64,000 bases of DNA from a bacterium (GCA_019637795.1 JAHBUY010000002.1:806001-870000), one strand, 5' to 3'. Positions 4,456 through 51,874 are shown, counted from the stretch's first letter. Program-made: numbers and translations. The notes: generated by a model from the letters alone, not told the origin.

Positions 4456-7182
4456 TCACCCGGCGGCGGACGATGGGGACGCGTCGTCGCCGGCGAACAG
4501 GTCGATGGTGGCGAAGAGCTGGCGCGGGTCGATCGGCTTGCTGACGTAGGCGTCCATGCCGGCGGCAAGACACCGCTCCTCGTCGCCGCGCATGGCGTGC
4601 GCGGTCATGGCGATGATCGGCACGTGCCGCTTGCTGAACCGCTCGCGGGCGCGAATGGCGCCGGTGGCCTCGAGGCCATCCATCTCGGGCATCTGCACGT
4701 CCATCAGGACGAGGTCGAACACGGCGCGCTCGTAGGCGGCGACGGTTTCGTGACCGGTGCTCGCGACGACGACGCGATGGCCGCGGCGTTCGAGCAGGCG
4801 GACGGCGAGCTTCTGGTTCACCGGGTTGTCCTCGGCGAGGAGTATGCGCAGCGAGCGCGTGGCCGGCGGGGACGGCGCGACGCCGCGCGCGGGCGAGCGA
4901 GCGGCCACTCGCGCCGCGGGCGCGCGCTCCCCTGGCGGCTCGAGGGCGGCGAGCAGGGCCCCCAGCAGATCGTCGCGCCGCACCGGTTTGCTCAGGTAGC
5001 GCCGTATGGGGTGCCGCGCCGCGTGCTCGGCCGGCGCGAGAGGGCCGGCCGAGGACAACATGATGATCGGCGGCACGGCGCAATCGGCCGCCGCGAGCAT
5101 CCGCTCGATGAGGGCGAAGCCGTCCATGTCCGGCATCTGGCAGTCGAGCAGCGCCAGCCGGAACGGGCTGCCGGCTACGGTTGCCCGCCGCAGCGCGAGC
5201 AGCGCGTTGGCCCCGCTGTCGACCACCGTCGGACGCATGCGCCATGCGCGCAGCGTCTCCTGCAGGATGTGCCGATTGGTGGCGTTGTCATCGACGACGA
5301 GCACGGGAAGATCGCGGAGGTCGACCGGATCGATCGGCAGGGCCACGGCCGCCCCTGGCCCATCGACGCCGAGCGCGACGGTGAAGTGGAAGGTCGAGCC
5401 GCGTCCCGGCTCGCTGTCGACCCAGATGCGCCCGCCCATCATGTCGACCAGTTTGGCGGAGATCGCCAGCCCCAGGCCCGTGCCGCCGTAGCGCCGGGCC
5501 GTCGACCCGTCGGCCTGCTGGAAGGCGTGGAAGATGCCGGCCGCCTTGTCGGCGGGAATGCCGATGCCGGTGTCGCGAACCGAGAAGTGCAGCACCGTGC
5601 CGGCGCGATCCGGCGCGTCGGCGGGCAGGTCGCGCCACCGGTCGACCGCGACCGCCACCTCGCCGCGCTCGGTGAACTTGATCGCGTTGCCACTCAGGTT
5701 GAGCAGAATCTGCCGCAGGCGGCCGGGGTCGCCGAGCACGGCCTCGGGAACGTCCGCCGCCTGCCAACAGGTCAGCTCGAGGTCCTTCTCGTGCGCGCGC
5801 ACCGCCAGCGTGCGCAGGGTGTCCTCCAGGCAGCGGCGAAGATTGAACGGCACGGTCTCGATGGTCATCTTGCCGGCCTCGATCTTGGAGAAATCGAGGA
5901 TGTCGTTGATGATGGTCAGCAGCGCATCGGCCGAGGCCTTCACGGTCTGGAGATATTCGCGTTGCTCGGAGCTGAGGTCGGTGTCGAGCGCCAGGTCGGT
6001 CATGCCGATGATGCCGTTCATCGGCGTGCGGATCTCGTGGCTCATGTTGGCGACGAACTCGCTCTTGGCCCGGCTGGCCGCCTCGGCGGCATCGCGGGCC
6101 CGCTCGAGCTCCCACTGCGCCTGTTTGCGCGCCGTGATGTCCTCGACCTGCGAGACGAAGTAGTGCGGCGTGCCGTCGGCATGGCGCACCAGCGACACCC
6201 CGAGATAGATCCAGACCGCGTGCCCCTGCTTGTGCAGGTAGCGCTTCTCCATCACGTAGTGGGGGATCTCGCCGCGGATCATGCGGCCGACGTTCGCCAG
6301 GTCCCGCTCGAGATCGTCGGGGTGGGTGATCGCCTGGAAGGTCGTGGCGAGCAGCTCGGCCTGGTCGTAGCCGACGATGTCGCACAGCGCGCGGTTCACC
6401 TCGAGCCATCGGCCGTCGAGCGCGACCATCGCCATGCCGACCACGGCGTGATCGAAGGCGCCGCGGAACCGCGCCTGACTCGCCCGCAGCTCTTCTTCGC
6501 GCGCGCGCAATGCCGCCGTGCGCTCGTGCACCGTGCGCTCGATGGTCTCGTTGAGCGTTTCCAGGGCGGCCCGCTGTCCGGTCATCTGGCGCATGTCGCG
6601 AACGGCGTGCACGGAGGCGTAGATGAGGATGACGTCCTCGAAGACCACCCAGGCGGCGTACTCGGCCCAGTGCAGCGGATTGACGACGAGCGGGAGGAAC
6701 GCGGACCGCGGCCAGGCGATGCCGCGGAGAAAGGAATCGGCGGCGACGACCGCGGTGGCGAGCACGAGCACCCGCCAGTCGCGGTAGAACGCGAGGAAGG
6801 CCAGCGAGCCGAAGACGTGAAAGTGGGTCTCGGTGCGTCCCCCGGTGAGATGGATCAGCAACGCCGACCACGCCATCTGGCAGACGGCGATGACGTAGCG
6901 GGTGGCGGGCCGGCCCGGTTCGGTGAGCGCCAGGATGATCGGCACCGCGCTGAATCCCGTGCCGAGCAGGATGGCCGCCCAGACGTGCGGGTGGGTGTAG
7001 TGCACGGTGCCGGCCCAGGTGTAGGGCGCCATCCACAGGATCACCGCCAGGCCGGCGATCCATTGGACCGCCATGAGGACCGCGAACATGCGGTCGGTGC
7101 GCGCGAATTGGATCTGCCGCTCCTCCGCGAACAATGCCGCGGCGCGGGCATGCTGGTCAGCCGCCACGGGGCGCCTCCTCAT
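4456..7182 (-). CDS. Hybrid sensor histidine kinase with PAS domain and two receiver domains
   Basis: The 908-residue protein opens with an integral-membrane sensor of about six helices (25 to 205). A coiled-coil linker, one PAS domain (about 245 to 365) and a HisKA domain follow, with the phosphoacceptor His in [12 protein letters not shown] (about residue 380). The HATPase domain has the G1 and G2 boxes DTGIGIP and [10 protein letters not shown] (about 490 to 610). Two receiver domains end the protein: LVVDDN with phospho-Asp in [11 protein letters not shown] (about 625 to 740) and LLAEDN with [11 protein letters not shown] (about 778 to 895). The build is that of a BarA/GacS-like phosphorelay kinase without an Hpt domain, so a separate Hpt or regulator is needed. 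Its ATG overlaps the stop of the upstream thioredoxin-fold gene (TCAT at 7179-7182 on the plus strand), implying coupled translation. Confidence 0.93.
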
Positions 7183-7868
7183 CCGCCCGTGTCGGGCGGC
7201 TCATCCGCGACGAGGGAACAGCCGAACACCGCCGCGGTCGATCCTTCGCTGCTCGGCCATGCTCGCAACCGCTCCGCGACGGCGCGCCGGCCGGGGTTGT
7301 CACCGGCACGGCAGCGCGCCGGCGTGATGCCGCCGCTGAACAGCAGCTCGCCGGTCGCGCCGTAGAGCATCGCCTGGCCGGAGGTGAAGGCGCCGAAGCG
7401 CGATCGCTCGCGTCCGTCGACGTCGCCGAGCACCCGGACGCCCGGGATGGCGGTCGCCGATCGCCAGAGGTCGCCATGCCACCAGTCCCGGGATTCCGTC
7501 CCCGGCGCCAGGAACAGCACCGCGACGGCGGGTCGCGGCGCTCCGGCGCGCGCCATGAGGCGTGACAACTCCTCGAGGCTGGCGCTCGAGCATGCACACT
7601 GCGGGTGCACGAACATGAGCAAGGTTGGCCGGCTGCCGGCCCGGGCAACGGCACTCCCCGCCGGCCAGTGAGCCGGCGGGCGCGCCATCCGGCCGGGGGT
7701 GGCGTCGTAGACCTGCAGACGCCACGCGACGACCCCCGCCGCCGCCAACCATAGGCAGCCGAACGCGGCCAGCGCGCGATTGCGGCGGCGCGGCGCGCGC
7801 TCGTCGGCGGGCGGCGACGCCTGCGGTGCGCTCGCGACCACGCGTTCGCGATCGTTCCCCACGGTCAT
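7179..7868 (-). CDS. Membrane-anchored thioredoxin-fold protein (RedB-like)
   Basis: This 229-residue protein has one N-terminal membrane helix (about 32 to 50) and an exported domain beginning LLMFVHPQCACSSASLEEL (about 83 to 101). The CAC-S motif sits where thioredoxin-fold proteins carry CxxC, so it resembles a thioredoxin-like redox or metal-binding module; proteins of this build have been called RedB. A second region, LYGATGELLFSGGITPAR (about 168 to 185), is typical of such proteins. The gene is first in a two-gene unit and overlaps the histidine kinase by 4 bp, which suggests a shared sensing task, perhaps redox or metal stress. That role is inference. The ATG at 7868 was chosen as the only start before the membrane helix. 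Confidence 0.7.
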   Translation of the reverse strand: MTVGNDRERVVASAPQASPPADERAPRRRNRALAAFGCLWLAAAGVVAWRLQVYDATPGRMARPPAHWPAGSAVARAGSRPTLLMFVHPQCACSSASLEELSRLMARAGAPRPAVAVLFLAPGTESRDWWHGDLWRSATAIPGVRVLGDVDGRERSRFGAFTSGQAMLYGATGELLFSGGITPARCRAGDNPGRRAVAERLRAWPSSEGSTAAVFGCSLVADEPPDTGG

Positions 7869-8253
7869 GCGCGATGGCGGATTGCACGTGCTATGCCTAT
7901 CTGGCGGCGCGCCAGGCGTTTTGCTGACGGGCAGACACCGGTGCCAACGCCGTGCCTGAGGCTCCGCAAACGGCGGCGCGGTGGCGCTCTCCAGGTGGCG
8001 GGGAGCCGAGCGCCGCGCAGGTGACCAGCCATGTGCCGCGGGCGTCGACCGCGGCGGATTCGCCGCGCCCGGTCCTTCCTATCCCACACGGGCTACCGGT
8101 GGACCCTCAGCGATGTGTATAGAGGCGCGACGGCGAGGACCGCCGTCATGTCGATGTGAAACGGATCAGCACGGCCGGGGCGGACGCGGCGGGCGGTCGG
8201 GGGGCAGCCTGCCGGCGCGCGCCTCCGGTGCGGCTGACGGGAGGGCCGCTGCC
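7869..8253. other. Divergent intergenic region, 385 bp
   Basis: This stretch separates the leftward thioredoxin-fold gene from the rightward carboxymuconolactone-decarboxylase-like gene and should hold both promoters. A GTGTATAGAG segment near 8114-8123 could be a rightward -10 box, but no matching -35 box was found. No RNA gene, repeat or conserved small ORF was recognised. Confidence 0.4.
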
Positions 8254-8898
8254 ATGCCTCGCCTGCGCCAGGTTCCACGCGATGCCGCGCCGCCACAGGT
8301 GCAGCAGATGTACGACTTCGTCTTCGGCGCCGGTCGCGATCCGGTGGCCGAGCCCGGCACCGAGACGGGCACGCCCGGCAACTGGTGGACGGTGTTCGCG
8401 CTGGTGCCGGACGCCCTGCTGCACGCCGTCGCCGGCTTCGCCTTCTACCGCTCGCCGGCGCGGGCGCTCGATCCGAAGTTGCGCGAGCTCGGGCAGATGC
8501 GCGCCGGGTGGGCGCGCGGCAGCCAGTTCGTGTTCTCCCAGCACTGCAAGGCCGGGCGCTCGGTCGGGCTCAGCGACGAGCAGGTCGAGGCGGTGCCGGG
8601 ATGGCAGACCGCCGAGGTCTTCTCGCCGCTCGAGCGCGCCGTCCTCGCCTATACCGACGCCCTCGTCCTGGACGGCGGCCGGGTGCCCGACGCCACGTTC
8701 GCCGCCCTGCGCGCCGGCGGCCTGAGCGACGAGCAGATCTTCGAGCTCACCTACATCGTCTGCACCTACGAGATGCACGCCACCATCTGCCGCGCCCTGC
8801 GCCTCGAGTACGACGACGTCGACGAGCGCGTGGTCGAGATCATCGGCGCTGACGGCGTCCGCACGCTCGACGCGATGCGACGGGTCGATCGATCCTGA
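8254..8898 (+). CDS. Carboxymuconolactone decarboxylase (AhpD-like) family protein
   Basis: The 214-residue protein shows the all-helical AhpD/CMD pattern: RELGQMRAGWARGSQFVFSQ followed by HCKAGRSVGLSDEQV, and later FELTYIVCTYEMHATICRAL. The usual catalytic CxxC pair is not present at the central helix (QHCKA has a single Cys), so a peroxidase role is doubtful. Related proteins act as gamma-carboxymuconolactone decarboxylases or as uncharacterised CMD enzymes near aromatic-compound genes. The frame is open upstream of the chosen ATG at 8254, but similarity begins at MPRLRQVPRDA, the usual family start. It stands alone between short gaps. Confidence 0.78.
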   Translation: MPRLRQVPRDAAPPQVQQMYDFVFGAGRDPVAEPGTETGTPGNWWTVFALVPDALLHAVAGFAFYRSPARALDPKLRELGQMRAGWARGSQFVFSQHCKAGRSVGLSDEQVEAVPGWQTAEVFSPLERAVLAYTDALVLDGGRVPDATFAALRAGGLSDEQIFELTYIVCTYEMHATICRALRLEYDDVDERVVEIIGADGVRTLDAMRRVDRS

Positions 8899-9052
8899 CC
8901 CCGAATCGGGCGCGCCGCCGTCCGTCGGCGCGGTCGTCACCGCGCGTCGCCGGAGCGGCGCCTGGCCGATGTCGATTCGCCCCGGCGACAGCCGACGCCA
9001 GGGTGGGAAGCCGTCGGGTGCCGCCGACGACAGCACACGAGCTGGAGGAACG

Positions 9053-9421
9053 ATGAAATTCCTGTGCCTGGCCTACGAAGAGGAACGGAAGCTGACCGCG
9101 CTGAGCCAGTCCGAGTGGGACCGCCTGCGCGGCGAGACGCTGGCCTATGTAGAGGTGCTGCGGAAGAGCGGTCATCTGCTCGCCACGCATGCCCTGCAGA
9201 GCGTGCGCACCGCCGCGACGGTGCGGGTGCGCGACGGCGGGGCGTCGGTGATGGACGGGCCGTTCGCGGAGACCAAGGAGACGCTCGGCGGGTTCTTCCT
9301 CGTCGAGGCCCGCGACCGCGACGAGGCGATCGCGCTGGCGGCGCAGTGGCCGTCGGCCCGCCTCGGCAGCATCGAGGTGCGACCGATCGAGGAGGAGCTG
9401 CGCCACGATCGCCGCTACTGA
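9053..9421 (+). CDS. YCII/DGPF-domain protein
   Basis: This small 122-residue protein carries the hallmark MDGPFAETKETLGGFFLVEA (about 64 to 83) after an opening MKFLCLAYEEE. These features define the YCII-related DGPF family, small ferredoxin-like-fold proteins often encoded next to ECF sigma factors. No sigma factor is seen next to it here. The start at 9053 is supported by a GGAGGA ribosome-binding site at 9045-9050; the frame is open upstream but lacks similarity. No catalytic role is known with confidence for the family. Confidence 0.85.
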   Translation: MKFLCLAYEEERKLTALSQSEWDRLRGETLAYVEVLRKSGHLLATHALQSVRTAATVRVRDGGASVMDGPFAETKETLGGFFLVEARDRDEAIALAAQWPSARLGSIEVRPIEEELRHDRRY

Positions 9422-9439
9422 GCGCGGCGCGCGCCGCGC
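9422..9439. terminator. GC palindrome after the DGPF gene
   Basis: A perfect 18-bp palindrome made only of G and C begins one base after the stop codon of the DGPF gene. It can form a short hairpin and may end or stabilise the transcript. There is no T-run behind it, so a classic rho-independent terminator is not shown. Confidence 0.35.
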
Positions 9440-9596
9440 CGGCGCCTGGATCTCGAACCGCCGAGTGACCCGCGACGTCCGCCGCGGGCGCGTAGCCGCG
9501 ACGACGGCCATCGCCTCGCGCGGCGCCGCAGGGCCGTCCAGCCGTTGCCGGTCCTGGGCGATGACCATCGCAGCCGGCTCGGCGGCCGCACCGCGC

Positions 9597-22100: not shown

Positions 22101-22403
22101 ATGCGAGGATTGGTGTTGGTTGTCCTGCTGGTAGGAATGGCGGCGCCGGCGTTCGCGGCCGTCGACGCGCAGGAGCTGTACAACAAGAAGTGCAAGGTGT
22201 GTCACGAGCTCAACGGCGTGGCGGGCCCGAAGGCGAAGGTGGGCGGCAAGCTCGACGGCGTCGGCGCCAAGCACGACGAGGCGTGGTTCCGCGCCTACTT
22301 CGCCGACCCCAAGTCGAAGATCCCCGATTCCAAGATGAAGAAGATCAACCTCTCGCCGGAGGAGTGGGACGCGATGGTGCAGTTCATGTTGCAGCAGAAG
22401 TGA
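22101..22403 (+). CDS. Periplasmic monoheme cytochrome c
   Basis: This 100-residue precursor has a signal peptide ([19 protein letters not shown]), then a class I-like cytochrome fold with a single heme motif CKVCH (31 to 35) and a C-terminal helix [13 protein letters not shown]. Possible axial Met residues are present (for example PDSKMKK). It would carry electrons in the periplasm. The ATG follows an AGGAGGG ribosome-binding site. It is the first gene of the 22.1-30.1 kb electron-transfer cluster and lies 22 bp before the membrane multiheme gene, so it may shuttle electrons from that protein to the outer-membrane conduit. Confidence 0.88.
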
Positions 22404-22425: not shown

Positions 22426-23946
22426 GTGAAGCTGCCACCGCTCGTCCACAATCGCCTCAGCTACGCCGGCGCCGCGATCGCGCTGCTGTCGCTGACGGCG
22501 ATCGTCTTTCTCTTCATCCTCAACACCCTGGCCGGCGGCGAGGCGCCGTACGCCGGCCTGGTGATCTTCATCTTCCTGCCGGCGGTCCTGCTGTTCGGGC
22601 TGGTTCTCATCCCGATCGGCATGTGGCGCGAGCGTCGCCACTGGCAGCGCACGGGAGCGTTTTCGATCCCGCGCTTCCCGGTGCTCGACCTCAACAACCC
22701 GCGCGAGCGCAACGCCGCGCTCATCTTCGTCGTCGGCTCGGTGGTGCTCCTGTTTCTGACCGTCTTCGGCAGCTTCAAGGCCTACGAGGCGACCGAGTCC
22801 GTCGCCTTCTGCGGCTCGACCTGTCACACGGTGATGGAACCGGAGAAGGTCGCGCACCAGCGTTCGCCGCACGCCCGCGTCCGCTGCGTCGAGTGTCACG
22901 TCGGTCCCGGGGCGGAGTGGTATCTCAAGTCGAAGGTCACCGGCGCGCACCAGCTCTGGGCGGTGGCGACCGACAGCTACCCGCGCCCGATCCCGGTGCC
23001 GATCGAGAGCCTGCGGCCGGCGCGCGAGACCTGCGAGCACTGCCACTGGCCGGGGCAGCACGCCGACGTGCAGCGGCTGAAGACGCGGGTGGCCTACCTA
23101 CCCGACGAGGCGAACACGCGCTGGGAGATCAGCCTGCTGGTCAACGTCGGCGGCGGGTCGCTGACCGAGCAGGGGGTGGGCATCCACTGGCACCTCAATC
23201 CCGAGAACCGGGTCGAGTACATCGCCGCCGACCCGGGTCGGCAGACGATCCCCTGGGTGCGGGTCACCGACCTGCGCACCGGAAAGGTCAGCGAGTACAA
23301 CAGCACCGACGAGCCGTTGTCGGCCGAGCAGATCGCCGCCGGGCCGGTGCGGGTGATGGACTGCCTCGACTGCCACAACCGGCCCAGCCACCGCTTCGAG
23401 CCGCCGGACATGGCGGTCGACCAGGCGATCCTCGCCGGCGGCATCGATCCGGCCCTGCCCGGGATCAAGGCGGTCGGAACCGAGCTGCTGGGCGCCGACT
23501 ACGCTTCGGTGGCCGAGGCCGAGGCGGCGATCGACAGCGGCCTGCGTGCGCACTACGCCGAGAACGATCCGGCGGCGCTCAGTGCGCACGGACCGGCGCT
23601 GCAGCAGGCGGCGGTGGCGCTGAAGGCGGCCTACCGCGCCAACTTCTTCCCGGCGATGAAGGCGAACTGGAGCGCCTACCCGGACAACGCCGGTCACTTC
23701 CGCTGGCCGGGCTGCGTCCGCTGCCACGACGGTTTGCATGAAACCGCAGACGGCGAGAGCATCGAGTCAGAATGCACCACGTGTCACGTGATCACCGCCC
23801 AGGGCAAAGCCGGGGCGCTGCAGCGGTCGAGCGGCGCCGAGGGGCTCGCTTTCGCGCACCCGCCGATCAAGGACCTGGAAGACGCGTGGCAGGACACCCC
23901 ATGCACCGACTGCCACGGGAGCTCGGGATCGGGCGAGGGCTCGTGA
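22426..23946 (+). CDS. Inner-membrane seven-heme cytochrome c (NapC/NirT-related, ImcH-like build)
   Basis: The 506-residue protein has three N-terminal membrane helices (about 12 to 36, 43 to 66, 104 to 121) and a large periplasmic part with seven heme motifs. The first is an unusual CX3CH (CGSTCH), followed by CVECH, CEHCH, CLDCH, CVRCH, CTTCH and CTDCH. The sequence after the first heme, [20 protein letters not shown], is typical of quinol-oxidising NapC/NirT relatives. Geobacter ImcH, required for reduction of high-potential extracellular acceptors, is a seven-heme membrane protein of the same superfamily. The likely job is to take electrons from menaquinol or ubiquinol to the periplasm. 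The start is GTG 22426. Equating it with ImcH is inference from layout. Confidence 0.85.
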
Positions 23947-24126: not shown

Positions 24127-26373
24127 GTGACACAGACATCTTCGGCCCCAGGGCGAGCGCCAGCGGGAATCGCGGCGCGATCGATCTCGGCCGGCGCGCG
24201 AGTCTCGGCGCTGGCGGTGCTGGCCGTCGCGCTGACCGCCGGCTGCGGCGGCGGCGGCGGTGGTGGCAAGGCCCAGCCGACGGCCACCCCCACTGGGGTC
24301 CCGACCGCCGTGCCCACCCAACCGGCGCCGATCGCCGGTGCCGGTCTGCAGAGCGACATCACGGGGGTGCAGATCAGCGGCGGCCGCATCGTCGCGACCT
24401 TCACGCTCACGGACGATGCCGGCGTCCCGATCACGCCGCTGCTGACCAACGCCCCGAACAGCCAGGCGGCGCGGGTGCGGTTCACCTCCGCGCACATCGA
24501 GACCTACGAGGGCGGCGGCGAGCTCCGCACCGAGTTCTCGCGTTACGTGAACGACCTCGATCCGGTGCGGCCGAAGTACGACAGCAACGGCACGCTGGAG
24601 ACGGTCGACCGCGCGGCGGGCGTCTATCGCTACACCTTTGCCAAGGTCCTGCCCGCCGACGCGGACCTGAACACCACGTACAGCATCGGCCTCCAGGTCG
24701 ATCGGACCTACGCGGGCGTTTCGCTGTCGGCCAATCCCATCTTCGACCTCGTGCCCGCTGGCGGCACGCCGCAGATCCGCGAGGCGGTCGTCACGGCGCA
24801 GTGCAACCAGTGCCACAATCCGCTCATCGCCCACGGCAATCGCCGCGAGGTGCGGCTGTGCACGCTCTGCCACACCCAGGCGGCGACCGACGAGAAGGGC
24901 ACGAGCATCGACCTGTCGGTGATGGTCCACAAGATCCACGCCGGCAAGGATCTGCCCTCGGTCGCCGACGGTCCGCCGGGGAGCCGGTACGCGATCTACA
25001 GCAGCTTCGCGCGCGCCTACCAGGTGTTCGCCGAGAAGGACGAGGACGGCCGGGTGACCGGCGTCGGCTTCCCGCGGCCGCTCAACGACTGCGCCAACTG
25101 CCACACCGGCGGCGCCACGTCGCACTACGCGACCGACCGTCCGGCGGCGGCGCCGTGCACCTCGTGCCACGACGATGTCAACCCGTCGCAGGTCGCCACC
25201 GCCGCCGGTCCGCCGGGGACCAATCACATCCAGAACCGCGGCTTCCCCGACGGCGACTGCCAGTTCTGCCACCTGAAGGACCAGACGGCGGAGTTCGACA
25301 TCTCGGTGCCGGGAGCCCACCTCATCCCCGAGCAGTCGACGCAGCTTCAGGGCCTGAACATCGACATCGCCGGGCTCGCCAGCCACGGACCCGGCGAGAA
25401 GCCGGTCGTCAGCTTCAAGATCAGCAACAACGCCGGCGAGGCGCTGCGCGATCTCTCCGGTCTCAACCGCCTCGCCTTCACCCTGGCCGGACCGACCCGC
25501 GAATACACCTCGGTACTGGGCGCCACCGCGGTCGGCGGCGGCGCCGGCGGCATGCTCAGCGGGCCGGCCGCCGATGGGAGCTTCCAGTACACGCTGCCGG
25601 TGGCGGTGCCGGCCGACGCCAGCGGCACCTGGTCGCTCGGCGCCGAAGCGCGCCGCTCCGTCACCCTGGCGGCACCGGAGGGGGCGACGCGCAGCGTCAA
25701 CGAAGCCGCGGTGAACCCGGTGGTGACGTTCTCGGTCGGCGCGCAGGCGCCCGAGGTGCGGCGCGTGGTCGTCGAGGACGCGCAGTGCGAGAGCTGCCAC
25801 GGCGAATTCTCGAAGGGCTTCTCGATCCACGGCAACCTGCGCAACCAGATGCAGTACTGCGTGCTCTGCCACAACCCGAACGCCAGCGACGTCGCGCGCC
25901 GCCGCAACGATCCGGCGGCGGTGGCGGCCGGCGACGCGGTGGCGTCGATCGACTTCAAGTACATGATCCACAAGATCCACACCGGCGACGAGCTGGCGCA
26001 CACGCCCTACGTCATCTACGGCTTCGGCGCGCCGCCGGCGAACTACACCGCGATCGACTTCTCCGACGTGCGTTTCCCCGGCGATCGCCGCGACTGCCAG
26101 ACCTGTCACGCCGCCGGCACGAACCTGATCCCGCCGTTCCCGGGGCACGCCCTCGGCACCCAGCTCGGTCATCTCGACCCGGCGACCGGCCAGTTGATCG
26201 TCGACGGACGCCTCGGGCCGATCACCTCCGCGTGCACCTCGTGCCACGACAGCGATGCCGCGATGGCGCACGCCGAGACGCAGACCGGGAGCAGCGGCGA
26301 GGCGTGCGAGGTCTGCCACGCCGAGGGCCGCGACGTCGCCGTCTCCGCGGCGCACGTACGCAACGTGCAGTGA
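24127..26373 (+). CDS. OmcA/MtrC-family decaheme outer-surface lipoprotein cytochrome
   Basis: The 748-residue precursor ends its signal with a lipobox (LTAGC, Cys40), followed by a Gly run and a Pro/Thr-rich linker. Two pentaheme blocks are separated and preceded by beta-rich domains. The first block has CNQCH, CTLCH, CANCH, CTSCH, CQFCH (about 227 to 382); the second has CESCH, CVLCH, CQTCH, CTSCH, CEVCH (about 556 to 734). This ten-heme, two-block plan with split-barrel domains defines the OmcA/MtrC family, which hands electrons from the outer membrane to minerals, electrodes or other acceptors. GTG 24127 with the GGAGGGG site gives the lipoprotein signal its normal length; a longer reading would be arginine-rich. 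A strong hairpin separates it from the barrel gene. Confidence 0.93.
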   Translation: MTQTSSAPGRAPAGIAARSISAGARVSALAVLAVALTAGCGGGGGGGKAQPTATPTGVPTAVPTQPAPIAGAGLQSDITGVQISGGRIVATFTLTDDAGVPITPLLTNAPNSQAARVRFTSAHIETYEGGGELRTEFSRYVNDLDPVRPKYDSNGTLETVDRAAGVYRYTFAKVLPADADLNTTYSIGLQVDRTYAGVSLSANPIFDLVPAGGTPQIREAVVTAQCNQCHNPLIAHGNRREVRLCTLCHTQAATDEKGTSIDLSVMVHKIHAGKDLPSVADGPPGSRYAIYSSFARAYQVFAEKDEDGRVTGVGFPRPLNDCANCHTGGATSHYATDRPAAAPCTSCHDDVNPSQVATAAGPPGTNHIQNRGFPDGDCQFCHLKDQTAEFDISVPGAHLIPEQSTQLQGLNIDIAGLASHGPGEKPVVSFKISNNAGEALRDLSGLNRLAFTLAGPTREYTSVLGATAVGGGAGGMLSGPAADGSFQYTLPVAVPADASGTWSLGAEARRSVTLAAPEGATRSVNEAAVNPVVTFSVGAQAPEVRRVVVEDAQCESCHGEFSKGFSIHGNLRNQMQYCVLCHNPNASDVARRRNDPAAVAAGDAVASIDFKYMIHKIHTGDELAHTPYVIYGFGAPPANYTAIDFSDVRFPGDRRDCQTCHAAGTNLIPPFPGHALGTQLGHLDPATGQLIVDGRLGPITSACTSCHDSDAAMAHAETQTGSSGEACEVCHAEGRDVAVSAAHVRNVQ

Positions 26374-26407: not shown

Positions 26408-26437
26408 CGCCGGCCGCGCTGGGGAGCGCGGCCGGCG
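26408..26437. terminator. 13-bp hairpin between the decaheme and barrel genes
   Basis: Perfect arms CGCCGGCCGCGCT (26408-26420) and AGCGCGGCCGGCG (26425-26437) close on a GGGG loop 34 bp past the decaheme stop. It is very stable but lacks a T-run. It could partly terminate transcription or protect the 3' end of the upstream mRNA, allowing unequal levels of surface cytochrome and conduit proteins. Confidence 0.6.
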
Positions 26438-26491: not shown

Positions 26492-27853
26492 GTGCGCATT
26501 GGGTGGAGGATCGGGACTGCGTTGCTCTACGGCATCGGTGTCGCCGCGTTGCCGGCGCGCGCCGCCGATCTGTGGGGCAACCTCGACCTGCTCGGCCAGG
26601 TGCGCGAGAGCTATCAGGACCGCGATACCGAAGCGCCGACCAACGTCTACGCCAACCTCGGCATCAACCACATGTGGCACGCCAGCGAGACCGAGGCGTA
26701 CTTCCGCCTCGAGCAGGACCTCGCCGGCAACCAGAACACCAGCGACTTCTACGCCGGCTACGCGCGGGTGCCGAACGTCCTGCCCGGCGTGCAGGCGACC
26801 GTCGGCCGCCAGTTCCTGAGCGAGGGGCCGGGCAACGTCTTCGTCGCCGACGCCGGCAAGGTGAACGTCGACGTCGGCTGGCCGGTGATGTTCACCGTCT
26901 ACGGCGGTGCGCCGCAGTACTTCGAGCCCACCTACTCGACGCCGATCATCTCGCAGGACGAGATCCTGTGGGGCGGCAACATGCGCACCACGCGGTGGAA
27001 CGGCGGCCAACTGACCCTCGGCTACCAGCAGTGGGAGCGGAACAGCAAGGTCCTGCAGCAACTGGTCAGCGCCAGCGCCGTGCAGTCGATGCCGACCTGG
27101 CTCTTCGCGCCGCGCTTCTACGGCACGTTCGGCTACGACGCCGACCGCGCCAACGTCGACACCGCCACCGGCGGCGTCGATTTCACCGTCAGGGAGCCGC
27201 TGCTGCTGTTCAACGTCGCCACCACCTACTACCAGCCGCAGGACAACACCGGCACGCTGCCCGATCTCAACCGCCAGGAGGACACGATCTTCCAGTTGTT
27301 CTCGAACAGCAACCTGTGGCAGGCGCGCGGCGGCGTGCGCCACCCGTTCTCCCGCGAGCTGTCGGTGTACGGCGACTTCTCCTACCAGAACTACGACAAC
27401 GCCGTGAACCAGAACCAGAACGGCTATCTCGCCCACGCCGGCCTGATGTGGCTGCCGGAGGGCGACGGGCTGGAGCAGGTCGTGCTCGCCTACTACCTGG
27501 CCGACAGCGGCGGCGGCAACGTCAACGGCATCTCCCTCTATTACGAGAACAAGGTGTACGAGCGGATCACCTTCCGCTTCCGCACCGACCTCGCGTACTA
27601 CGAGAAGGAGAGCAACCAGAGCGACTGGCCGGTGGCGACCCGCACCGGGCTCGCCTATGAGTTCCTCCCCGGTCTCGACGGCCAGCTCATCTTCGAGGCC
27701 AATCGCAACGCGCTCTTCGACGCCGACTTCCGCTTCGGCTTCGCGCTGACCTACAACTTCAAACACTACGTCAAGGAACCGTGGAACCGCGCCGACACGC
27801 CGTCCGACACGGCGGCATATCCGGCCGCCGCGCCCGCGGAGTCGCACTCGTGA
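26492..27853 (+). CDS. Outer-membrane beta-barrel, likely porin of a porin-cytochrome conduit
   Basis: This 453-residue precursor has a signal peptide ending in PARAA (about residue 25), and then alternating polar/hydrophobic strands rich in Tyr, Trp, Asn and Asp throughout, with no heme motif. Aromatic girdle-type strands such as ATYYQPQDN, YGDFSYQNY and FGFALTYNF are typical of outer-membrane barrels. The last strand (ending about residue 425) is followed by a 25- to 30-residue Ala/Pro tail. In MtrCAB and Geobacter Pcc systems a barrel sheathes a multiheme cytochrome across the outer membrane. Its place between the decaheme and lipoprotein cytochrome genes supports the same role. Start GTG 26492 has a GGGGAGGA site; its TGA overlaps the next start (GTGA at 27850). 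Confidence 0.82.
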   Translation: MRIGWRIGTALLYGIGVAALPARAADLWGNLDLLGQVRESYQDRDTEAPTNVYANLGINHMWHASETEAYFRLEQDLAGNQNTSDFYAGYARVPNVLPGVQATVGRQFLSEGPGNVFVADAGKVNVDVGWPVMFTVYGGAPQYFEPTYSTPIISQDEILWGGNMRTTRWNGGQLTLGYQQWERNSKVLQQLVSASAVQSMPTWLFAPRFYGTFGYDADRANVDTATGGVDFTVREPLLLFNVATTYYQPQDNTGTLPDLNRQEDTIFQLFSNSNLWQARGGVRHPFSRELSVYGDFSYQNYDNAVNQNQNGYLAHAGLMWLPEGDGLEQVVLAYYLADSGGGNVNGISLYYENKVYERITFRFRTDLAYYEKESNQSDWPVATRTGLAYEFLPGLDGQLIFEANRNALFDADFRFGFALTYNFKHYVKEPWNRADTPSDTAAYPAAAPAESHS

Positions 27854-28506
27854 GACCGCTGCCCGCGCTGGGGTTCGCCGTGGTGGCGGTGGTGGGGGCG
27901 ACGGCGCTGCTGACCGCCTGCCGCAATGCGCTGCCGACCACCAGCTTCCTGCACAAACGGGCGGCGCCGGAGTCGAAGAGCACCAGCGATGCGCGACACC
28001 GCTTCGATCACGCGCTGCACGCCGAGGTGCTCGCCGCGCAGGGCCAGACCTGCGCCGACTGCCACCGCTTCGACGTCATCATCGAGACCGGCGAGCCGGC
28101 CCTGGCGAGCGACATCTCGGCGCGCGCGCTGCACCCGGGCGGGGCCGCCTGCCATTACTGCCACGGCCCCGGCGAGACCAAGATGGCGACCGCGCCGGGC
28201 ACCTGCACCACCTGCCACACCAACCTGCTGCCGCTGCGACCGACGGACCACGACGTGTCCTGGATCCGCGTCCACGCCTCGGTCGCCCAGGCGCAACCCG
28301 GGCAGTGCGAGAACTGCCACAAGCAGTCGGAGTGCATCTACTGCCACGAGACCCGCGACACCATCCAGACGATCGTCCACGACCGCAATTTCCTCTACTT
28401 CCATTCGATCGAGGCGCGGGCCAATCCGATGCAGTGCGGCAGTTGCCACCGCGAGGACTACTGCATCCGCTGCCACCAGCAGGGCAAACCGGAGGTGAGA
28501 CAATGA
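27850..28506 (+). CDS. Seven-heme lipoprotein cytochrome c
   Basis: The 218-residue precursor has a lipobox (LLTAC, Cys24) and seven heme motifs: CADCH, CHYCH, CTTCH, CENCH, CIYCH, CGSCH and CIRCH. The heme density (seven in about 195 mature residues) is that of a heme wire filling a barrel or spanning the periplasm, comparable in role, not in sequence, to MtrA or OmaB. It follows the barrel gene with a GTGA overlap and overlaps the next gene by ATGA. I infer it is the cytochrome inserted in, or docked on, the barrel. No named family was recognised beyond multiheme cytochromes. Confidence 0.85.
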   Translation: MRPLPALGFAVVAVVGATALLTACRNALPTTSFLHKRAAPESKSTSDARHRFDHALHAEVLAAQGQTCADCHRFDVIIETGEPALASDISARALHPGGAACHYCHGPGETKMATAPGTCTTCHTNLLPLRPTDHDVSWIRVHASVAQAQPGQCENCHKQSECIYCHETRDTIQTIVHDRNFLYFHSIEARANPMQCGSCHREDYCIRCHQQGKPEVRQ

Positions 28507-28901
28507 CCCGCGTGGCGCGCCGGACGCCTGGCTCCGCGACCCCGCGGCCGGCCAGGGGGCGCCGCTTCCTCGCGGCCGCGCTCGCCGCCGCGCTCATCGC
28601 CGCCTGCGGCGACAACGCCGCGCCGAGCAGCGAAAACTACGGCAATCTGCTCAACTCGCCCGGCGGGCTCATCGTGCTCGAGGAGGAGCACCCCACCGGA
28701 TGGCAGCGGCCCGACTGCTTCGCCTGCCACAACGTGCTCAACATGCACACCGTCAACCGCACCGGATTGCCGAGCTGCAACAAGCTGCCGCAGCCCCCTG
28801 CCACCGGCTGCATCAACCTGCTCGAGATCCAGCAGATCATCGACAACGAAGGCCAGGATAGCTGCCCGATGTGTCACGGCGACAACGGAGTGTCGCCATG
28901 A
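28503..28901 (+). CDS. Diheme lipoprotein cytochrome c
   Basis: A 132-residue precursor with a basic N-terminus, a hydrophobic stretch and a lipobox (LIAAC, Cys35). It has two heme motifs: CFACH, with a potential distal His in HTVN, and CPMCH at the C-terminus. Two further cysteines, in CNKLPQ and TGCIN, may form a disulfide. It overlaps the genes on both sides by four bases (ATGA at 28503 and 28898), so it is an obligate member of the operon. The family was not recognised. It may be an electron relay or assembly factor of the conduit; this is inferred from context. Confidence 0.78.
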   Translation: MTRVARRTPGSATPRPARGRRFLAAALAAALIAACGDNAAPSSENYGNLLNSPGGLIVLEEEHPTGWQRPDCFACHNVLNMHTVNRTGLPSCNKLPQPPATGCINLLEIQQIIDNEGQDSCPMCHGDNGVSP

Positions 28902-29488
28902 GCCTGCGCTGGCTGGCGCTGCTGGCCGTGCTGGCGCTCTGCGCCCCGGGGCTGCCCCTGCGCGCCGCCGAGGACGATACCAACCCGCACCGCATGAGCG
29001 GGCCGGACGATGACTCGGGTTGCGGCTTCTGTCACGAGGACGACATGAGCCTGTCGAGCTCGCTGCTCGACACCTGCCTGAGCTGCCACTCCCTCACCGA
29101 GCACTCCGGCTCGCAGGAACACCTGCACGCCACCGCGGCGGTGGTGGCGCGCCTGCGGCCGACGCCGATCAAGGCCGGCGCCGAGCCGATCCTGCCGCTC
29201 ACCTCCGAGGGCACGATGTGGTGCGGAACCTGCCACCTCTATCACGACCCGCAGGTGAACGAGGAAGCGCTGTTGCCCGAGCGCTGGCACCCGCCGATGC
29301 GCGGCATGGCCGCCGCCGTGGCCGATGCCCTGGCGTCGCGCTGGGGCGATCTCGCCGCCAAGTACGACCAGAAGCTGCCGGTCGCCAGATTCTCGGCCCA
29401 CGGCACCAACGCGTTGCGCCTGTCGGTGTCCGACGGTCGCCTCTGCGGCGAGTGCCACAGCTATCCGACGAAGGCGGCGAGGAGATGA
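28898..29488 (+). CDS. Periplasmic tetraheme cytochrome c
   Basis: The 196-residue precursor has a cleavable signal (MSLRWLALLAVLALCAPGLPLRA) and four heme motifs: CGFCH, CLSCH, CGTCH (in MWCGTCHLYHDP) and CGECH near the C-terminus. The FCHEDDM and CLSCHSLTEHS segments recall small cytochrome-c3-like modules. The long stretch between hemes 3 and 4 is helical with no heme. Without a lipobox it should be soluble in the periplasm, suited to carry electrons between the inner-membrane cytochrome and the outer-membrane lipoproteins. It is coupled to both neighbours by ATGA overlaps. The specific family was not recognised. Confidence 0.83.
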   Translation: MSLRWLALLAVLALCAPGLPLRAAEDDTNPHRMSGPDDDSGCGFCHEDDMSLSSSLLDTCLSCHSLTEHSGSQEHLHATAAVVARLRPTPIKAGAEPILPLTSEGTMWCGTCHLYHDPQVNEEALLPERWHPPMRGMAAAVADALASRWGDLAAKYDQKLPVARFSAHGTNALRLSVSDGRLCGECHSYPTKAARR

Positions 29489-30081
29489 GCCCGCGCCTGC
29501 TGCTCGGCCTCGCCCTGCTGTTCGTCGCCGCCTGTGGTCACGACGGCGCGCCGCAGTACGGCGGAAAACCGCCGCCGATCGACCAGGTCTACGGCCAGTG
29601 CACCTTCTGCCACGACCAGGTGGCAGTGCCGATGTACACCTTCGGCGGGCACGGCGGCTTCAAGGTCACCTGCACGACCTGCCACGATCAGGACCTCACC
29701 CCGGGCCGGGTCGGCCCGGACCACCGCAACGTGCCGGCGTGCGCCGACTGCCACAGCAAGCAGAAGACCCACATGGATCCCGCCGCCGGCACGCCGCAGC
29801 AGTGCCTGGTCTGCCACACCCCGCACGGCTCGCCGAACCTCTACCTGGTCGACACCGACATCACGGTGCCGAGCGGCGCCGTCGCGCCGATCGACTTCAC
29901 CAACCTGATCGGCAAAGCCGATGGCAGCTTCGCCAGCGCCACCGATCCCGGCACCGGGCTCTGCGAGGTCTGCCACGCGACGACGACCTACTACAACAGC
30001 GAAGGCACCGGCGCGCCGCACTTCACCAACAACTGCGTCGTCTGCCACACCCACGCCGCCGCCTTCGCGCCGCCGCCGTAG
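29485..30081 (+). CDS. Hexaheme lipoprotein cytochrome c
   Basis: The 198-residue precursor has a short lipoprotein signal (VAAC, Cys17) and six heme motifs: CTFCH, CTTCH, CADCH, CLVCH, CEVCH and CVVCH. Spacing of the first four (about 40-108) is close and regular; a loop of about 55 residues with no heme precedes the last two. The mix of HGG, HHRN and HTPHG segments supplies many possible distal His ligands. It is the last gene of the cluster, coupled to the tetraheme gene by ATGA at 29485, and ends 3 bp from a convergent thioesterase gene. It may be an outer-membrane or surface relay; the location relies on lipoprotein sorting, which cannot be read here. Confidence 0.85.
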   Translation: MSPRLLLGLALLFVAACGHDGAPQYGGKPPPIDQVYGQCTFCHDQVAVPMYTFGGHGGFKVTCTTCHDQDLTPGRVGPDHRNVPACADCHSKQKTHMDPAAGTPQQCLVCHTPHGSPNLYLVDTDITVPSGAVAPIDFTNLIGKADGSFASATDPGTGLCEVCHATTTYYNSEGTGAPHFTNNCVVCHTHAAAFAPPP

Positions 30082-48279: not shown

Positions 48280-48927
48280 TCAGCCATCGGCAAGCAGCGG
48301 CGGCAGCTCGCGGGGGTGCTCGATGAGGACGTCGACGCCGGCGATGCGCAGCTCGTCGCGGCTGCGCAGCCCCCAGGCGCAGCCGACGGTGCGCGCGCCG
48401 AAGCGCCTGCCCGTCTCGACGTCCACCGCGCTGTCGCCCACCATCCACACCGCCGGCGCGCCGCCGACGCTGGCGACGACGTGGGCGATGGTCGCCGGAT
48501 CGGGTTTGCTGACGGGCAGGGCGTCGCCACCGACCACCGCCGCGAACAGGCCGCGGATCGCCAGCCCCTCGGCGATGCGGTCGAGAAACGTCTGCGGCTT
48601 GTTGCTGAGGATCGCCAGCACGTGCCCTGGCGCCAGCGCCTCCAGCGCCGGCCGGATGCCGTCGTAGAGCGTCGTCGTGTCGAGGCAGCAGTCGGTGTAG
48701 TGGGCGCGGAAGCGCAGGTAGAGCGGCTCGATGCGGCCGGGATCGTCGCTGTCGATGGCGCGCGCGATCAGGCGGCGCACGCCGTGGCCGACCCAGGACT
48801 TCACGTCGGCCGGCGCCGCCGCCGGCAGACCCGCCTCGGCCAGGCTGCGGTTCAGCCCGGTGGCGATGTCGCGCCAGGTGTCGGCCAGCGTGCCGTCGAA
48901 GTCGAAGATGACGAGGGGGCGGGACAT
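48280..48927 (-). CDS. HAD-family hydrolase, phosphoglycolate phosphatase-like
   Basis: The 215-residue protein has HAD motif I FDFDGTLADT (about 8 to 17), motif II LSNKPQ (Ser about 106), motif III with the SKPDP Lys (about 139 to 143) and motif IV WMVGDSAVDVETG (about 159 to 171). A helical cap lies between motifs I and II. It resembles Gph-type phosphatases that clear 2-phosphoglycolate, though other sugar phosphates are possible. ATG 48927 is the likely start. It is divergent from the CocE-type gene across 274 bp. Confidence 0.9.
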   Translation of the reverse strand: MSRPLVIFDFDGTLADTWRDIATGLNRSLAEAGLPAAAPADVKSWVGHGVRRLIARAIDSDDPGRIEPLYLRFRAHYTDCCLDTTTLYDGIRPALEALAPGHVLAILSNKPQTFLDRIAEGLAIRGLFAAVVGGDALPVSKPDPATIAHVVASVGGAPAVWMVGDSAVDVETGRRFGARTVGCAWGLRSRDELRIAGVDVLIEHPRELPPLLADG

Positions 48928-49085
48928 GGCTGGCGCGAACGGAACGGGGCTGGCCCTGGCCCACCGGGCGACACGCCGTCGCCAGCCGGAGGAGCCGGGC
49001 TGGGTCGTACCTACCCGGCGATGCCTCGCATCGCCAGCGGGCCGGGGCGCCCGCGCGGCACCGCCTTCCATGACCAAAGCGTGGT

Positions 49086-49135
49086 TTGACATAGATCCGC
49101 CGCGTCCATACCGTCGGCCGATCCGTACTGATCGG
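49086..49135 (+). promoter_or_regulatory. Candidate promoter and operator of the CocE-type gene
   Basis: A perfect -35 TTGACA (49086-49091) precedes a weak -10 TACCGT (49109-49114) at 17 bp. Overlapping the start region, CCGATC (49118-49123) and GATCGG (49130-49135) form a 6-bp dyad. The unit lies in the gap shared with the divergent HAD gene and points to the CocE-type gene. Confidence 0.45.
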
Positions 49136-49201
49136 TATCGACTGTGGACGGGCGGGCGGTTCGGGAACGAATTCGCGCGCGCGCTTCACCTGGGGGGACG
49201 T

Positions 49202-51874
49202 ATGCTCGTATCGGGGCGCCACGCGCGCCAGTTTGCCATCATTGCCGCGCTCGCGGCGCTGCCACTGCTCGCCGCCTGCGGCGACAGCAACAATTCCAAA
49301 CCGCGCCCGACGCCGACCGCGACTCAGCCCGCGCCGGCAACGGCCACGTCGGTGCCGGCAACGGCAACCGCAACCTCGGTGCCGCCGACACCCAGCGCGA
49401 CGGCGATCCCGCCGACCGCCACGGCGATTCCGCCGACGGCCACCGCGACCGAGGTGCCGGCGACGGCCACCGAAGTGCCGGCCACCGCGACCGAAGTGCC
49501 GGCGACGGCGACCGAGGCGCCGGCTACCGCGACCGAGGCGCCCCCGACGGCAACTGAAGCGCCTCCGACCGCCACCGAGGCGCCTCCCACGGCGACCGAG
49601 GTGCCGGCGACGGCAACCGAGATCCCTGCGACCGCAACCGAGGTCCCGCCGACCGCCACCGCGACCGAGGCGGCGGCAACCCCGACGCGCACGCCCGATG
49701 CCGACGCGACGGCAACGCCGGACGATCCGAATTTCCGCGACCTCGGCGACGCCGCCGAGGCGTCGTTCGCCGCCCACGGCAGCGTCAACCAGGTCTATGT
49801 CACCGGCGCGACCGAGGGCGAGGTGCTCGAACTGGTCGGCGCCGATTGGCTGGTGCAGCAGCACGGCACGGTCGACTCGGCGGGGGCGCTGATCTTCCGC
49901 AACGTCGACGCCGGCGCCGGCTACCGCGTCGTCGCCGGCTCCCCCGGCAACCTCTCCGCGTCGCCCGCCCTGACCGTGACCAACGTGGACGAGCCGCCGC
50001 CGCAGTCGTTCTACGACTCGCAGGTGATCGGCAAGGGCTACGGCTATCTGCAGACCCGGGACGGCACCACCCTGTCGATCAACGTCGTCCTCCCCGGTCC
50101 GATCGAGAATGGCCCGTACCCGACGGTGATCGAGTACTCGGGCTACAGTCCGTCCAACCCCGACTCGCCGCAGCCCAGCACGCTGCTCACCAGTCTGCTC
50201 GGCTATGCCGCGGTCGGCATCAACATCCGCGGCACCGGCTGTTCCGGCGGCGCCTTCCAGTTCTTCGAGCCGCTGCAGTGGACCGACGGCTACGACGCGA
50301 TCGAGGTCATCGCCGCGCAGCCGTGGGTGAAGGACCACAAGGTCGGCATGGTCGGCCTCTCCTACCCCGGCATCTCGCAGCTCTTCGTCTCGCGTCTGCA
50401 GCCGCCCTCGCTCGAAGCCGTGGCGCCGCTCTCCACCATCGCCGACGTCGGGCGGGGCACGCTCTATCCGGGCGGCATCCTCAACAACGGCTTCGCCACC
50501 GACTGGGCCGCGGACCGCAAGCACGACGCGCAGCCGTACGGCCAGAGCTGGACCCTCAAGCGGCGCGACGCCGGCGATCAGACCTGCATCGACAATCAGC
50601 AACTCCGCCTGCAGTCGCCGGACATCCTCGATATGATCGCCGAGAACCAATTCTACGTCCCCGAGGTCGCCGACCCGGTGACCCCGGAGCTGTTCGTGAA
50701 GGACATCACCGTGCCGGTGTTCCTCGCCCACGCCTGGCAGGACGAGCAGGTCGGTGGCTACGCGCCGAACATGCTCGATCACTTCACCGGCACCGACAAG
50801 AAGCACTTCACCCTGGTCAACGGCGGCCACAGCGAGCCGCTGATCCCGGCGATCTTCCACCGCTGGATCGAGTTCCTCTCGTTCTACGTGCGCAAGGAGA
50901 CGCCGGTGACGCCGGCGCTCGCGACCGTGATCGTCGGCTACCTCGGCAGCGACATCTTCGGCGCCATGAACCTGGTCCTGCCGCCCGACCGCTTCGCCGG
51001 CATGTCGTACGAGGAGGCGCTGGCGGCGTTCGAGAGCGAGAAGCCGGTCCGCGTCCTGTTCGAGTCCGGCGCCGGCTTCCCCGGCCAGCCCGGCGCCCCG
51101 GTGCCGAGCTTCGAGGCCTCGTTCGATAGCTGGCCGATCCCCGGCACGGTGGCGACGCCGTGGTACTTCGCCGACGGCGGGCAGCTCAGCCCCGATCCGG
51201 TCAGCACCGACGCCGTGGACACCTTCCACTACGACGACCGCGACGCGCAGCAGGGCAACCTGGCCAGCAACAACGGCAACGACGTCTGGCTCGCCAATGC
51301 GCCGTGGGATTGGAAGCCACTGCAGGACGGCCGCGCCGTCGCCTATGCGACCGAGCCGCTCGATGCCGACACGGTGATGGTCGGCACCGGCAGCGTCGAC
51401 CTCATGGTGCGCGCCGACACCCCCGACGTCGATCTGCAGGTAACGCTCACCGAGATCCGCCCCGACGGCGACGAGACCTACATCCAGAACGGCTGGCTGC
51501 GCGCCAGTCGCCGTGCCCTCGACCCGGTCAACAGCACGGAGCTGCGCCCCGTCGCCACGCACCTTCAGGCCGATGCGGCGCCGCTGCCCGAGGGAGAATT
51601 CACCCTGGTGCGCGTCGAGCTCTTCCCCTTCGCGCACGTCTTCCGCGCCGGCTCGCGCATCCGCATCTCGGTCGAGGCGCCGGGGAACGATCGCGCCATC
51701 TGGAAGTTCGACGCCCTTCCCGACCCGGCCACCGTCGAGATCGCCCTCGAGGGCTCGCGCGTCGTCCTGCCGGTCATTCCCGGCATCCAGGTCCCGACCG
51801 GGCTGCCGCCCTGCAAGGCCCTGCGCTCGCAGCCCTGCCGGCCCTACGAGGAGATCGACAACAGCGTCGACTGA
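49202..51874 (+). CDS. CocE/NonD-type X-Pro hydrolase lipoprotein with a repeat stalk
   Basis: The 890-residue precursor has a lipobox (LLAAC, Cys26), and then a long Thr/Ala/Pro stalk (about 35 to 165) with ten near-identical 7-residue units T-E-[VAI]-P-[AP]-T-A. An Ig-like stretch (about 175 to 255) leads to the alpha/beta-hydrolase core. The nucleophile lies in GLSYPGIS (S387), the acid in WQDEQVGGY (about 515) and the His in NGGHSEP (about 542). A C-terminal jelly-roll domain of the PepX_C type follows. CocE-like enzymes hydrolyse acyl esters or peptide bonds. The stalk suggests display on a membrane surface, possibly the cell exterior. The substrate is unknown. ATG 49202 is near GGGGGG. 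Confidence 0.88.
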   Translation: MLVSGRHARQFAIIAALAALPLLAACGDSNNSKPRPTPTATQPAPATATSVPATATATSVPPTPSATAIPPTATAIPPTATATEVPATATEVPATATEVPATATEAPATATEAPPTATEAPPTATEAPPTATEVPATATEIPATATEVPPTATATEAAATPTRTPDADATATPDDPNFRDLGDAAEASFAAHGSVNQVYVTGATEGEVLELVGADWLVQQHGTVDSAGALIFRNVDAGAGYRVVAGSPGNLSASPALTVTNVDEPPPQSFYDSQVIGKGYGYLQTRDGTTLSINVVLPGPIENGPYPTVIEYSGYSPSNPDSPQPSTLLTSLLGYAAVGINIRGTGCSGGAFQFFEPLQWTDGYDAIEVIAAQPWVKDHKVGMVGLSYPGISQLFVSRLQPPSLEAVAPLSTIADVGRGTLYPGGILNNGFATDWAADRKHDAQPYGQSWTLKRRDAGDQTCIDNQQLRLQSPDILDMIAENQFYVPEVADPVTPELFVKDITVPVFLAHAWQDEQVGGYAPNMLDHFTGTDKKHFTLVNGGHSEPLIPAIFHRWIEFLSFYVRKETPVTPALATVIVGYLGSDIFGAMNLVLPPDRFAGMSYEEALAAFESEKPVRVLFESGAGFPGQPGAPVPSFEASFDSWPIPGTVATPWYFADGGQLSPDPVSTDAVDTFHYDDRDAQQGNLASNNGNDVWLANAPWDWKPLQDGRAVAYATEPLDADTVMVGTGSVDLMVRADTPDVDLQVTLTEIRPDGDETYIQNGWLRASRRALDPVNSTELRPVATHLQADAAPLPEGEFTLVRVELFPFAHVFRAGSRIRISVEAPGNDRAIWKFDALPDPATVEIALEGSRVVLPVIPGIQVPTGLPPCKALRSQPCRPYEEIDNSVD
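49448..49657 (+). repeat. Ten tandem 21-bp units encoding the stalk
   Basis: Ten in-frame 21-bp repeats, each coding T-E-[VAI]-P-[AP]-T-A, run without interruption inside the CocE-type gene. They vary mostly at third codon positions and at the V/A/I and A/P residues. The sequence is flanked by looser TATSVP and TAIPP units. The copy number may be variable. Confidence 0.9.

Follow-up and report, generated by a model that had tools for sequence, protein, structure and literature searches.

How electrons would cross the outer membrane at this locus, and whether that step needs one heme protein or several, is the question raised by a run of genes in which a predicted outer-membrane barrel is followed by four small multiheme cytochromes. 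The locus lies in a window of 64,000 nt (GCA_019637795.1 JAHBUY010000002.1:806001-870000), by which we mean the whole stretch of DNA analysed; the source genome comprises 6.16 Mb in 12 contigs, and its relatives within the class include MAGs named Candidatus Binatia. We refer to the cytochromes with 7, 2, 4 and 6 CXXCH motifs as c7, c2, c4 and c6. Between 22101 and 30081 the + strand encodes, in this order, a monoheme cytochrome c, an ImcH-type protein, an OmcA/MtrC-family decaheme cytochrome, the barrel, c7, c2, c4 and c6:

22101–22403, + strand: probable periplasmic carrier, a monoheme cytochrome c of 100 aa (PF00034, E=1.4e-7)
22426–23946, + strand: ImcH-type inner-membrane quinol oxidase, 506 aa, with NapC/NirT region (PF03264; NrfH 5.4e-5)
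24127–26373, + strand: OmcA/MtrC-family surface decaheme lipoprotein, 748 aa, 10 hemes (TIGR03507; PF22113 1e-50)
26409–26436, + strand: GC stem between the MtrC-type and barrel genes, perfect over 12 bp and closed by a GGGG loop (unique in the window, 0 expected)
26492–27853, + strand: outer-membrane beta barrel, 22 predicted strands (AlphaFold2; homologues in the class)
27850–28506, + strand: c7, heptaheme lipoprotein cytochrome, proposed barrel wire (CXXCH count, invariant His, covariation with the barrel)
28503–28901, + strand: c2, diheme lipoprotein, proposed adaptor, with conserved GNL...EHPxGW motifs (CXXCH, invariant His)
28898–29488, + strand: c4, soluble periplasmic tetraheme cytochrome, proposed electron feeder (four CXXCH, no lipobox)
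29485–30081, + strand: c6, hexaheme lipoprotein with MtrA-like segment, accessory and variable (6r2q_A and TIGR03508 matches)

Open reading frames and a motif scan agree with the first-pass annotation that 27850–30081 encodes four multiheme proteins with 7, 2, 4 and 6 hemes, and no atypical CX3-4CH motifs were found in any of the four. Its division into three lipoproteins and one soluble protein also stands: lipobox cysteines were found in c7 (C24), c2 (C35) and c6 (C17), and the window copy of c4 has no lipobox. For the OmcA/MtrC-family gene a GTG start is proposed from a GGAGG site, and homologues of the monoheme cytochrome adjoin the cluster in L021, L022, L025, L041 and others. We rejected the stem at 26409–26436 as a terminator, as it lacks a T run and its sequence is not conserved in relatives; it may separate expression of the two operon parts. 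Elsewhere in the window (48731–51874), an ORF was noted by eye that combines a CocE-like hydrolase region with a segment resembling a lipoprotein and with long proline/threonine repeats (TATEVPATATE).

The two large cytochromes upstream of the barrel could be assigned to known families. The surface protein scored 362 bits against TIGR03507 (cut-off 209) and carries ten CXXCH motifs, which places it in the OmcA/MtrC family. In L021 the surface cytochrome appears to have been replaced: its slot (6600–9554) is occupied by a protein of 985 aa with 9 hemes and collagen-like repeats (PF01391 3e-17). Given that the window's genome has no match to the MtrB/PioB-family barrel profile (PF11854) and no decaheme MtrA-family protein over the TIGR03508 cut-off, we concluded that the conduit is not Mtr. 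The ImcH-type protein, at 506 aa, has six CX2CH motifs and one CX3CH (CGSTCH) beside its membrane part, together with N-terminal hydrophobic stretches (three helices by hydropathy only, the first two merged in one stretch), and so shares with ImcH a length of ~500 aa (495–519 in that family), the CX3CH next to the membrane part and the six CX2CH motifs (PMC6295460). Since the only role to which ImcH has been linked is the oxidation of quinol in Fe(III) reducers (PMC6295460), outward electron flow is the better guess, its direction being judged from the ImcH-type protein only.

We then asked what kind of barrel the electrons would have to pass. The AlphaFold2 model, built with 11 homologues, has 22 strands and a mean pLDDT of 74.8. 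Its closest fold matches are outer-membrane barrels, among them OprD-type porins, ushers and, with the best score, TonB receptors (Z 19.5 over 342 residues, 3.9 Å); MtrB was absent among the matches listed, in a search that establishes no more than the size class and does not tell conduits from other barrels of the outer membrane. TonB receptor barrels likewise have 22 strands. From standard barrel geometry we calculated a backbone radius of ~20 Å for 22 strands vs 24 Å for 26, the strand number of MtrB (PMC12076491). The barrel had no family match in Pfam or TIGRFAM-type profiles, and PDB searches with barrel, c7, c2 and c4 profiles yielded no convincing relative (ubiquitin hydrolase matches of the barrel profile were dismissed as chance). 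An ordinary porin or transporter, with the cytochromes acting as periplasmic carriers or as part of another redox system, would fit both the missing family match and a fold search that cannot tell conduits from other barrels.

The genomic company of the barrel bears on this question. Barrel homologues were found in 16 of 148 genomes of the class. Thirteen of the 16, including the window, have the order barrel-c7-c2-c4-c6 (as MtrC-barrel-c7-c2-c4-c6 or close variants), two (L031 and L032) have MtrC-c2-barrel-c7-c4, and in L028 the barrel gene is cut off by the end of the contig. Within the class, strong c7 matches are confined to barrel genomes (15; the contig of the 16th barrel ends within that gene). 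Beyond the class, two Nitrospirae-labelled MAGs, reached through the c7 alignment, carry c6-barrel-c7-c2-c4 with no MtrC-type gene nearby, indicating that the surface partner can differ. A profile search also found c7 in 11 of 58 genomes of another phylum, namely a Desulfobacterota-labelled genome (L041) and 10 relatives, most of which have MtrC-c2-barrel-c7-c4, usually followed by monoheme and 3-heme NapC-type genes (at a few of these loci the ORF picker lost c7 or c2 to overlapping frames, and the profile search still found c7). The core gene set is thus conserved in about 28 genomes from three lineages, and across the loci compared c2 and c4 occur as universally as c7. Barrel and c7 occur together in every testable genome, mostly beside an OmcA/MtrC-type surface cytochrome, which is the hallmark layout of porin-cytochrome (Pcc) systems (PMC4245776) and makes an ordinary porin improbable. 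We consider these data to support a conserved porin-cytochrome module in which several small cytochromes accompany a barrel and both MtrB and a full-length MtrA-family protein are missing.

If the barrel is a conduit, the next question is how many of the cytochromes occupy it. One line of evidence is the spacing of the genes. All four junctions from the barrel gene onward are 4-bp overlaps, as first annotated (GTGA at 27850; ATGA at 28503, 28898 and 29485), and the same was true of 50 of the 52 barrel-to-c6 boundaries in 13 Binatia-class clusters (barrel to c7 and c7 to c2, 13/13 each; c2 to c4 and c4 to c6, 12/13 each), the other two being 1-bp overlaps. The junction between the MtrC-type and barrel genes had no such overlap in any of 8 Binatia-class clusters. 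In distant clusters (L031/L032, L038/L039, L041, L077-L086) the genes are adjacent, with most boundaries being short gaps or other overlaps, and a 4-bp overlap joins barrel and c7 in 8 of the 15 tested. The overlaps therefore appear to be a lineage trait, mostly lost outside the Binatia class although the genes stay together. They were also taken to enforce equal synthesis, which was not borne out: each of c7, c2 and c4 is preceded by its own GGAG-like site, and in c6 a GGAG lies directly against the start. In 1,695 species no other distance between unidirectional gene pairs is nearly as common as the −4 overlap (PMC10666635), so a single one is ordinary; it is, at the same time, enriched among subunits of heteromeric complexes, and the overlaps and the adjacency therefore suggest one complex (PMC10666635). 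This would suit a composite wire, in which c7 and c2 (perhaps with c6) lie end to end in or at the mouth of the barrel and no single cytochrome spans the membrane. Fusions offer a second view of the same question: in the loci compared, no member of the five-gene block (barrel, c7, c2, c4, c6) was found joined to another, and c6 alone is fused to something else or enlarged in some genomes.

Of the four, c6 is the one with a detectable likeness to MtrA. Its residues 37-130 match residues 134-228 of the MtrA chain 6r2q_A (E=3.5e-8; MtrCAB of S. baltica, entry 6R2Q, PMC12076491), and it matches TIGR03508 (MtrA/DmsE) with 38 bits (E=1.1e-9); in the genome-wide search it is the best match to that profile, with 31.7 bits. 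Both scores lie far below the cut-off of 192.2. The first-pass statement that none of the four resembles MtrA thus fails for c6 and holds for c7, c2 and c4, whose profiles gave no match to the MtrA chain of 6R2Q. (In the structure collection, chain A of 6r2q is wrongly labelled cystathionine beta-synthase, and name-based searches would therefore miss MtrA.) These local matches, together with a wire-like density of 30 residues per heme, raise the prospect that c6 and not c7 occupies the barrel as a shortened MtrA-like wire. Three observations speak against this. First, c6 is missing from L041-type clusters and from L031/L032, in which barrel, c7, c2 and c4 persist; judged by gene content, c6 appears dispensable. 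Second, it covaries least with the barrel (see below). Third, it changes greatly in size while the barrel does not: it has 14 hemes in L020, 20 in L027 and L030 and 22 in L029, and in L021 (12696-14804) a c6 homologue is fused to an ethylbenzene-dehydrogenase-type (EB_dh) domain with a cytochrome c motif (PF09459 1.8e-24). We regard c6 as barrel occupant as very improbable. The c6 gene overlaps an ImcH-type gene by 4 bp in four genomes, among them the 20-22-heme forms (L027, 6855-8864; L029, 5814-8135; L030, 12456-14696), which suggests that these enlarged cytochromes are periplasm-spanning extensions. A separate ethylbenzene-dehydrogenase-type protein is encoded upstream of MtrC in L082 (11874-13442).

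We next compared c7 with c2 and c4. Besides its seven CXXCH motifs, c7 has seven further invariant histidines in the alignment (H54, H57, H102, H134, H142, H177 and H185), the number that seven bis-His hemes would need; in c2 the only two histidines outside its two CXXCH motifs (H63 and H82) are likewise invariant. Residues per heme amount to 27.9 in c7, 30.3 in c6, 43.5 in c4 and 49 in c2; low values have been put forward as characteristic of molecular wires (see the discussion in PMC5566968). Among 13 Binatia genomes, evolutionary distances of c7 correlated with those of the barrel at 0.84, followed by c4 (0.73), c2 (0.58) and c6 (0.40), with 0.69 for MtrC in 10 genomes; these values are length-matched (90 resampled columns each), are all inflated by shared descent, and the intervals of c7 and c4 overlap. 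Moreover, c7 accompanies every intact barrel locus. Its predicted structure had a pLDDT of 43 and was left out of fold searches.

One property of c7 counts against its being the wire. MtrA is not a lipoprotein, and c7 of Binatia is. The c7 lipobox is present in Binatia and absent in L038/L039. The Nitrospirae-labelled copies of c7 and c2 have no lipobox, which implies that lipidation is not essential.

The same data weigh on the composite wire. In its favour, c2 and c4 are as widespread as c7, the c2 gene stands between the MtrC and barrel genes in L041-type clusters, and the seven hemes of c7 fall short of MtrA's ten. Against it, a barrel of ~20 Å radius, which offers about the room that a TonB receptor gives to one plug domain, could hold one wire-like cytochrome and not the ~650 mature residues of all four proteins; c2 and c4 lack wire-like heme density; and known Pcc wires carry 5-14 hemes in one protein (PMC4245776). 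The suggestion that the wire needs several small subunits is accordingly not supported, a single 7-heme c7 of ~195 mature residues lying within the known Pcc range. Since the complex must have a use for c2 and c4, which occur as universally as c7, we retain the composite wire as a possible but unlikely reading. If true, it would mean that co-translated small cytochromes are inserted together in one barrel and share a heme path.

Taken together, the invariant histidines, heme density, covariation with the barrel and room inside it lead us to favour, as an inference, c7 as the single barrel wire. In our preferred reading, which we hold to be probable, the operon encodes a porin-cytochrome conduit for outward extracellular electron transfer, in which c7 is the only wire, c2 and c4 act as conserved adaptors and c6 is optional. 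Quinol electrons would leave via the ImcH-type protein and be passed to c7 by soluble periplasmic c4 and the monoheme cytochrome, joined by c6 where present. Seated in the 22-strand barrel as a heptaheme wire, c7 would deliver them to the MtrC-type surface decaheme through or beside the diheme lipoprotein c2. An MtrA-like c6 may extend the path on the periplasmic side, and the 4-bp overlaps may provide translational coupling that aids co-assembly in the Binatia lineage. The invariant barrel-c7-c2-c4 set is a small, defined system for studying the number of subunits required for a trans-membrane heme wire and the role of non-wire cytochromes in such complexes.

How does this module relate to known systems? 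With MtrCAB it shares an OmcA/MtrC-family decaheme surface cytochrome and the segment common to c6 and MtrA, but it has no MtrB match, 22 instead of 26 strands and no decaheme MtrA-family protein over the cut-off; the surface cytochrome is hence paired with a barrel and a wire that in our tests showed no relation to MtrAB. A survey of ImcH found no mtrAB beside imcH (PMC6295460); here an MtrC-type gene adjoins, still without mtrAB. The arrangement had been called an unusual solution, yet barrels with several neighbouring cytochromes are already known. PCC4 (PMC5566968; He et al. 2017) combines one porin with 4-, 5- and 10-heme periplasmic cytochromes and a b-type inner-membrane protein and lacks a surface cytochrome; compared by description only, the present locus shares the single porin with several multiheme cytochromes and differs in its 7-2-4-6 hemes and MtrC-type gene. 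ExtABCD and Oet, also compared by description only, likewise have two or more cytochromes to a barrel, small lipoproteins among them (PMC6148476, PMC10553843), and the Ext components are reportedly without homology to one another or to OmcB-type ones. A large survey holds many unnamed clusters with a porin and several cytochromes. We found no prior description of the barrel-c7-c2-c4 set in the literature on Binatota/Dadabacteria, in a search that mostly left subscription papers outside; with it, uncultured lineages (Binatia and others) gain a conserved porin-cytochrome type that apparently has no name yet. In broad outline it agrees with Pcc systems, whose porins have 18-22 predicted strands and co-evolve with single periplasmic cytochromes of 5-14 hemes (PMC4245776): the barrel gene adjoins an exported multiheme cytochrome gene, the model has 22 strands and c7 has seven hemes. 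Compared by description only, the Geobacter Pcc (OmbB-OmaB-OmcB) shares the porin size, a 5-14-heme periplasmic cytochrome and a surface cytochrome lipoprotein, whereas here the surface protein is an OmcA/MtrC-family member and the block includes three additional small cytochromes (2, 4 and 6 hemes).
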